64,000 bases of DNA from assembly GCA_035540375.1 (NCBI GenBank), contig DATLGO010000058.1, forward strand, positions 1 to 64,000. The letters run 5' to 3'. Numbering within the stretch: position 1 is the stretch's first letter; each line of letters opens with the position of its first letter. A model generated the notes under the pieces. The model was not told the DNA's origin. It was given only the letters and a program-made list of their open reading frames with translations, and did no database searches. This DNA is from Candidatus Thermoplasmatota archaeon. GTDB taxonomy: Archaea; Thermoplasmatota; SW-10-69-26; JACQPN01; JAJPHT01. Positions 9,753 through 12,026 of this stretch are shown one piece after another. A program made the position numbers and the translations under genes.

Positions 9753-12026
9753 ATGGCGGACAAGAAGAAGGCATCCCCGAAGGCCGCCCCGAAGGACGCG
9801 AAGAAGCCGAAGAAGGAGGAGACCGCGCCGGTCGCCCCCGTCGAGGCCGCCGCCCCCGCGAAGGCGAAGGGCAAGAAGAAGGGCAAGGCCGAGGAGGCCG
9901 TCGCGCCCGTCGAGCCCGCGAAGCCGCTGACCCCCGCCGAGGAGCGCAAGCGCGCGATCAAGCTCTTCACGGAGATCCAGGGCGTCGGCAAGAGCAAGGC
10001 CGAGGCCTTGTTCGACGCCGGCTTCAAGACGAAGGAGTCGCTCATCGTCGCCCCCGTCGACGTCATCGCGGCCGCCGAGGGCATCGGCGCGAAGCTCGCG
10101 AAGGCGATCAAGGACGCGCTCCCGAAGGAGATCGAGGTCACCGAGTCCCAGATCACGGAGCTTCTCGCGCTCAAGGGCGTGGACAAGAAGAAGGCCGAGG
10201 CGCTCTATCGCCACGGCTTCCGCACGAAGGAGGACATCAAGCGGACCCCGATCGAGTACATCCTCGACATCGACGAGATCGACGAGGAGCTCGCGGAGTC
10301 GCTCATCAACCAGGTGACGGACCTCGAGGAGACCGTGGAGGAGTTCACGGAGATCCCCGGCGTCGGTCGCTCCAAGGCCGAGGCCCTCGTCGAGGCCGGC
10401 TACAAGACGATCTACGACCTCCAGCGCGCCTCGCTCGACGAGCTCGCGGAGGTCCAGGGCATCGGCGAGGAGCTCGCCGAGCGCATCAAGGACGAGGTCG
10501 GCGAGTTCGTCGACACCCGCGTCCAGTACGAGGGCGTCGAGTACGCCGAGTACCGGCCGCAGGAGCTCACGCCCGAGGAGAAGCGCGTGCGCGACGTCTC
10601 GGCCGCGATCAAGGCGTCCTTCCCGACGTACCTCGCGGACGAGCTCTCCCGGCGCCTCCGCGCGGGCCAGATCTCCGACAAGGAGCTCAAGCCCCGCATG
10701 CAGGCCTGGTGGGCGGTCTACGATCCGTTCCGCAAGCGCCTCGAGGCCCTGAACGCGTTCCTCCCGCCCTCGGTCGTTGTCGAGTTCATCACGAAGGTCG
10801 AGGCCCAGAAGATCCCCGACGCGAAGCTCGCGAAGATCGCGGAAGTCCTCTGGGACTCGTACCGCAGCCACCGCATCGACCCCACGGAGGCCGCGGGCAT
10901 CCTCGGCGCCCAGTCGATCGGCGAGCCCGGCACGCAGATGACGATGCGTACGTTCCACTACGCCGGTGTGGCCGAGATCAACGTCACGCTCGGTCTCCCG
11001 CGCCTCATCGAGGTCGTGGACGCGCGCCGCATCCCGTCGACGCCGATGATGCAGATCTACCTCGAGGAGTCCCACCGCCAGGACGCCGAGAAGGTGCAGC
11101 GCATCGCGGCGGAGATCGAGACGACGGAGCTCATCGACATCGCGGACGTCGACACGGACCTCGGCACGTTCCAGGTCGTCGTGAAGCCGGACGAGAAGAA
11201 GCTCCACCGCAAGTCGATCACGGTCGACGAGATCGCGGACAAGCTCGGGAAGATCAAGAACGCGGACGTCATCCCGCAGCCCGACGGCACGATCCTCCTC
11301 AAGCCCACGGAGGGCGAGGAGCGGCCGTACAAGACGATCCAGCTCATCGCCGCCGAGGCGAAGAAGACGCAGATCAAGGGCATCCCCGAGATCGCGCGCG
11401 TCGTCATCCGCCGCGAGGCGGAGGGCTACATCATCTACACGGAGGGCTCGAACCTCGCCAAGGTCATGAAGATCGACGGCGTGGACACGACACGCACCAC
11501 GACGAACAACTTCCGCGAGATCTGGGAAGTCCTCGGCATCGAGGCCGCCCGCTTCGCGATCATGGAGGAGGCCCACAAGACGCTCTCCGAGCAGGGCCTC
11601 ACGGTGGACAAGCGCCACCTCATGCTTGTCGCGGACGTGATGACGGTCGACGGCACGATCCGCGCGATCGGTCGCCACGGCATCTCGGGCGAGAAGTCCT
11701 CGGTCCTCGCGCGCGCGGCGTTCGAGATCACGGTCAACCACCTCCTCGAGGCGGGCATGATCGGCGAGATCGACCCGCTCGAGGGCGTCGCGGAGAACAT
11801 CATCGTTGGCCAGCCGGTCTCGCTCGGCACGGGCGCGGTGACGCTCCAGATGAAGCCCAACGCGTTCAAGGGCGCGAAGGTCAAGAAGTGGACCCCGCCG
11901 CCGGACTTCTACGCGACCGAGGCCGCCCCCGTTCCGCCGCCCGTCGCCCCCGAGGGCGACGCCGGGCCCATCACGCCCGGCGGCGAGGACGAGACGCCGA
12001 GCCTCATCGACAAGAAGGCCGAGTAA
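9753..12026 (+). CDS. rpoA2: DNA-directed RNA polymerase subunit A'' with N-terminal helix-hairpin-helix extension
   Basis: This is the C-terminal part of the largest polymerase subunit. The A'' core begins near residue 275 and contains [20 protein letters not shown] (from about residue 385), part of the bridge-helix/trigger-loop region. The protein is 757 residues, whereas archaeal A'' is usually about 400. The extra sequence is a Lys/Ala/Pro-rich tail (1-65), then three helix-hairpin-helix-like repeats at about 73-125, 134-187 and 197-250. Their hairpins read [24 protein letters not shown] and [12 protein letters not shown], the first and third paired with [10 protein letters not shown] and [11 protein letters not shown] Pro/Gly/acidic tail ends the protein. 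I chose the ATG 2 nt after the rpoA' stop. The extension may bind DNA or a partner; this is inference. Confidence 0.95.

Follow-up and report, generated by a model that had tools for sequence, protein, structure and literature searches.

The gene for RNA polymerase subunit A'' of a Candidatus Thermoplasmatota archaeon (genome G000) opens, directly behind the gene for subunit A', with a long stretch encoding helix-hairpin-helix (HhH) repeats. This arrangement raises the question of whether the repeats are a genuine part of the polymerase and, if so, whether they serve to grip DNA or to hold other proteins. The locus lies in a window of 64,000 nucleotides, the whole stretch of DNA analysed here, and comprises the following features:

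6970-9750, + strand: rpoA1, RNA polymerase subunit A' (926 aa), with Pfam domains RNA_pol_Rpb1_1 to _4 and the start of _5
9739-9743, + strand: Shine-Dalgarno sequence GGAGG, within the last rpoA1 codons and 9 nt 5' of ATG 9753
9753-12026, + strand: rpoA2, RNA polymerase subunit A'' (757 aa) with an N-terminal HhH extension (TIGR02389, PF04998)
9753-9926, + strand: disordered Lys/Ala/Pro N-terminal tail, residues 1-58, net charge +8, pLDDT below 50 at residues 1-55, 42% identical to the nearest relative, G001
9963-10121, + strand: (HhH)2 repeat 1, hairpins GVG and GIG (HHH_5, 6.7e-11), missing in G002-G004
10155-10313, + strand: (HhH)2 repeat 2, degenerate hairpins GVD and EID (HHH_5, 1.6e-8), with a counterpart in 7/7 class genomes
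10338-10499, + strand: (HhH)2 repeat 3, the most conserved, hairpins GVG and GIG (HHH_5, 6.2e-16), 80% identical to G001 (core 85%)
10512-10562, + strand: flexible linker, residues 254-270, from the HhH array to the A'' foot (pLDDT below 50)
10620-10760, + strand: family-specific insertion of ~47 residues (roughly 290-336) in the A'' foot, found in G000 and its one same-family genome, G001, and replaced by a gap in the five remaining genomes of the class
10869-11867, + strand: conserved A'' core with the trigger loop (class alignment; PF04998)
16243-16737, + strand: archaeal NusA-like gene with KH domains only and without HhH, read by eye from the list of open reading frames (ORFs), its outer start not fixed

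Three further ORFs (12286-14001, 14227-14832 and 14814-15857) separate rpoA2 from an rpl30e-like gene (15894-16259), and at least two of them have lipoprotein-like starts. By eye, the ORF at 20575-22383 resembles a relative of the one at 12286-14001.

Residues 337-701 of the A'' chain match the standard archaeal subunit (TIGR02389 rpoA2, 478.4 bits against a cut-off of 420.65), preceded by ~255 extra N-terminal residues that comprise the Lys-rich tail, three (HhH)2 repeats and a flexible linker. In this chain 392 residues precede the trigger-loop motif, in contrast with the ~70 usual for separate A'' genes in the archaea outside the phylum that we looked at. The HHH_5 profile (PF14520) scores 113.7 bits on the chain against a gathering score of 27 (E=5.5e-33), over three stretches in which each copy exceeds the cut-off, and reaches E=1.7e-36 on the extension alone. 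The AlphaFold2 prediction of the HhH module (mean pLDDT 91.6) consists of three HhH-short helix-HhH units; this module alone was used for the fold comparisons, the full-length model being poor in the core (seven sequences) and its matches dominated by the polymerase core. Repeats 1 and 3 carry canonical GhG hairpins with a K or R after the first hairpin of each, and repeat 2 is degenerate.

These results bear out the in-frame fusion of HhH repeats to A'' at the A'/A'' junction put forward in a preliminary description of the locus, the connection being the flexible linker. They also adjust some of its particulars. The extension, given there as about 270 residues, is real at ~255, and the insertion in the foot is separate from the array in the alignment of the seven class genomes; three HhH-like repeats are indeed present, one of them with both hairpins lost; and the tail described as basic is so in four of the seven class genomes, G000 among them, but not in G001, G005 or G006. 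The A'' N-terminus would lie at the foot of the polymerase, near the secondary channel.

The extension could have been an artefact of the start chosen, with A'' beginning at about residue 279 or 316, the array being a separate product or not made at all. In keeping with such a reading, Shine-Dalgarno-like sequences precede an internal GTG (codon 279) and ATG (codon 316). However, the rpoA1 stop codon (9748-9750) is followed by ATG 9753, and each genome of the order has a strong Shine-Dalgarno sequence and start codon for the extension: TACGGAGGCGAGTRA lies 5' of the extension start in 5/5 of these genomes, and TACGGAGGCGAG with ATG or GTG occupies the same position in 5/5, while the two class relatives outside the order present a GGAGG- or GGGGG-type sequence 5' of the extension start. 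Furthermore, the frame is open in 7/7 class genomes with no stop between array and core, and the amino acids of the array are conserved. A misread start is thus very improbable, and the start near residue 270 contemplated in the preliminary description is unlikely, the internal Shine-Dalgarno-like sequences notwithstanding. Translation from ATG 9753 is well supported by these signals, and a minor internal start at codon 279 or 316 could operate besides it.

Conservation along the extension is uneven. Identity to G001 amounts to 67%, 71% and 80% for repeats 1, 2 and 3, against 85% for the core and 42% for both the tail and the linker/foot region. Because this conserved block sits between drifting linkers, we read the HhH array as a selected domain. 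The reading relies on the identity contrasts, NG86 dN/dS estimates being unstable in these GC-rich, short regions (the dS of repeat 3 is unusually low, at 0.19). Repeat 3 (10338-10499) shows unusually few synonymous differences from G001, with a third-position difference of 0.16 vs 0.28 in the core.

The array is present in all seven available genomes of the class, which span four families, with three repeats in G000, G001, G005 and G006 and two in G002-G004. Outside the class, no comparable A'' array was found in a sample of 293 genomes of the phylum, in which module matches at E<=1e-13 were restricted to four genomes; the three of these loci that were examined encode a membrane protein, ribosomal protein eL32 and a long HhH protein, and none is an A''. 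At L242 (G022), tandem HhH repeats lie in the C-terminal half of a predicted membrane protein. In a second phylum (that of a haloarchaeon; 295-genome sample), 5/5 strong module matches are eL32. In a tree of the repeats, built on 56 columns and with weak groupings, repeat 2 groups by position across the class (support 92/97), repeat 3 does so less firmly (80/83, with RadA rows inside the group), and part of repeat 1 is placed with eL32 (91/82). Because the copies of repeat 2 cluster together, as do those of repeat 3, the array is probably older than the split of the class. The preliminary description had allowed that the extension might be universal in the family and already described: it is class-wide (7/7) without being universal, and the open-access literature searched, which covered HhH in connection with archaeal RNA polymerase, with eL32 and with extensions of Rpo1C, yielded no description of it. 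The architecture, an HhH array fused to A'', is new, although its parts are known.

Reading the A'' N-termini from whole frames revealed that a simpler domain is more widespread. A single short N-terminal domain, typically ALxKRG....A..L...G, is found in 15 of 39 A'' frames scanned, and also starts the A'' of a Methanocellales genome (L042). Loci with such a single degenerate domain are L025, L026, L031-L034, L036, L039, L042, L064, L143-L146 and L148. In profile-profile comparison, this domain matches the HhH repeats with a score of 45.3 (probability 96.5), against best control scores of 17.1 in 200 column-permuted and 14.1 in reversed comparisons. By this criterion, many A'' proteins of the phylum start with a degenerate HhH-like domain, and the form seen in the class is more elaborate; the class array may be an elaboration of this older, single HhH-like feature. 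More generally, A'' N-terminal architectures in the phylum vary widely, from none through a single HhH-like domain or HhH with an unannotated domain to the array. The A'' N-terminus of a Poseidoniales MAG (L050) is common to the same-phylum genomes G019, G027, G035 and G040. A large unannotated N-terminal domain occurs at L023, L027, L029 and L035 (family f12), L141 (G015) and L142 (G008); an example, MGFIWTSPD...WPCKFYVNLKRF, may by eye be PUA/EVE-like, and in L029 the domain has no Pfam match.

To place the repeats among known HhH proteins, we compared them with profile and structure collections. The NCBIfam ranking for the HhH part is headed by eL32 (PRK12766, 1.1e-29), followed by RadA (1.8e-17) and Hel308-type helicases, and the PDB sequences closest to the repeat profile are, in order, archaeal eL32, a Ski2-type helicase, NusA and RadA. 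The Rad51-type likeness suggested earlier is therefore present, but weaker than that to eL32. In eL32, a protein of the large ribosomal subunit, one N-terminal (HhH)2 precedes the ribosomal core, whereas two or three repeats are carried here by RNA polymerase; the HhH domains of RadA/Rad51 (N-terminal) and Hel308 belong to the same (HhH)2 family, with a weaker match and, in Hel308, a basic character. The profile of the NusA C-terminal duplication (TIGR01954) reaches 51.5 vs a cut-off of 48.15 bits when summed over two stretches of the present sequence, and 36.7, below the cut-off, in the class relative G005. In the fold comparison, the predicted module matched best (E=3.5e-4, query TM-score 0.31) to chain NA of the E. 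coli transcription-translation coupling complex 8y5l, a chain that we take to be NusA from the title and length, with topoisomerase V in second place (E=2.5e-3). So modest a fold match supports the type of module more than its arrangement.

The acidic repeats AR1 and AR2 of bacterial NusA (TIGR01954) resemble the array in being acidic (HhH)2 modules arranged in tandem, on flexible linkers and tied to the transcription machinery. They differ from it in that the modules here sit on the polymerase subunit itself, at its N-terminus, and lack the rest of NusA: no Pfam or NCBIfam match to the NusA NTD, S1 or KH domains was obtained in the A'' chain, and the C-terminal aromatic pair W490/F491 that AR2 uses (PMC7171158) does not occur here as a pair. 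The bacterial alpha-CTD profile (PF03118) likewise stays below its curated cut-off (16.2 vs 23.8 bits). Because no NTD, S1 or KH match is found in the chain, the A'' module is AR-like and not a NusA. NusA acidic repeats contact transcription factors by way of their C-terminal helix. In bacteria, AR2 is a dual HhH, attached by flexible linkers, that serves as a recruitment platform for alpha-CTD, NusG and SuhB (PMC6614801, PMC7171158); archaeal NusA is without the NTD, S1 and C-terminal extension (PMC8116511). Lineage-confined domain additions to the largest polymerase subunits have precedents in the BEAN and HABAS insertions, which, unlike the array, are described mainly in bacteria, and the same source lists, for archaea, an addition at the N-terminus of Rpo1C, its text leaving HhH unmentioned (PMC11515920).

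The electrostatic character of the module bears directly on the choice between DNA and protein as its target. Its net charge in the seven class genomes is -17, -17, -19, -17, -13, -27 and -26, and that of single A'' repeats ranges from 0 to -13. In contrast, the HhH domains of Hel308 in class genomes carry net charges of +2 to +10, a positive character that the A'' module (-13 to -27) does not show. Four class genomes have a basic tail; that of G001 is slightly acidic, and those of the halophile-like G005 and G006 are acidic. Because all seven modules are acidic while Hel308 HhH is basic, a general DNA clamp is disfavoured and protein contacts are favoured. Of the additional DNA- or protein-binding arm foreseen in the preliminary description, general DNA binding is thus hard to maintain, with acidity in 7/7 genomes and the hairpins of repeat 2 lost, and protein binding fits better, eL32 and the NusA AR domains being the nearest relatives.

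A DNA-binding arm, in which the array would grip DNA near the polymerase and raise processivity or promoter affinity in the manner of the tandem HhH domains of topoisomerase V, nonetheless has points in its favour: the canonical hairpins of repeats 1 and 3, topoisomerase V as second-best fold match (E=2.5e-3), and a Lys-rich tail in 4/7 genomes. Set against the negative module of all seven genomes, the negative tail of three (G001, G005, G006) and the degenerate hairpins of repeat 2 next to basic Hel308 HhH in the same genomes, we consider it unlikely. An aid to assembly, stabilising the A'/A'' joining or the protein, or else a neutral accretion tolerated without a specific partner, would agree with the architectural variability of A'' N-termini across the phylum and with the two repeats, in place of three, of G002-G004. 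It agrees poorly with a repeat 3 whose conservation (80%) comes close to that of the catalytic core (85%) next to linkers at 42%, and with retention of the array in 7/7 class genomes, and is the least probable of the functional readings weighed against protein docking.

Between these two in probability, and itself doubtful, stands docking to the ribosome, in which the A'' array and HhH domains on ribosomal proteins uS3 and eL32 would make up one lineage-specific transcription-translation link, through HhH-HhH contacts or a shared adaptor. Ribosomal proteins of the class do carry such domains. A C-terminal (HhH)2 follows a low-complexity linker in the uS3 of G001-G005 (L167-L170, L172) and G006 (L182), and in G000, where uS3 is split over two contigs, an HhH fragment lies at a contig end (L166), upstream of rpl29; a C-terminal HhH on uS3 would stand on the mRNA entry side. 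An N-terminal HhH is found on eL32 in 5/7 class genomes (G000, G002-G005), and also outside the class, in some genomes of this phylum and in the second archaeal phylum (L002:964-1686, - strand; L155-L158; L211, L212; L243, L253-L257). Motif filters missed uS3 or eL32 at some loci, and the eL32 HhH of G003 and G004 come from other searches. The standing of eL32 as nearest sequence relative, and as the identity of every strong match in the second phylum, the best fold match from a coupling complex (8y5l), and the precedent of BEAN, an insertion common to bacterial RNA polymerase and archaeal ribosomal protein uL10 (PMC11515920), lend this link some plausibility. However, strict co-occurrence of the HhH carriers fails, because a more divergent uS3 C-terminal HhH in family f5 (L186, L192, L202, L204) and the eL32 HhH of the second phylum occur without an A'' array; furthermore, no eL32 with HhH was found in G001 or G006. 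That the homologous A'', uS3 and eL32 modules form a covalently built-in coupling system, taking the place of the bacterial NusA/NusG bridges, is improbable.

Taken together, the A'' extension is genuine, translated and specific to the class, and the analysis establishes its fusion, start signals, predicted fold, conservation, class-wide distribution, acidity and nearest relatives. We favour protein docking over the alternatives, and put at about even the chance that the array is a tethered, NusA-AR-like docking arm; protein binding, partner and effect on transcription are all inferred. Such a flexible arm, tethered near the A'' foot and bearing its two or three (HhH)2 modules, which are acidic and of the NusA acidic-repeat/eL32 type, would keep elongation, termination or ribosome-associated factors, one or several, near the transcribing polymerase, by analogy with the tethered AR domains of bacterial NusA. 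Against a docking arm, net-acidic HhH domains can still bind DNA, and repeats 1 and 3 retain GhG.

These data identify the A'' N-terminus as a recurrent site of domain accretion in the phylum. How archaea recruit elongation factors or ribosomes has been stated as an open question (PMC8116511). The presence of NusA-repeat-like modules on the polymerase's own large subunit, in every available genome of one archaeal class, provides a testable handle on this recruitment.
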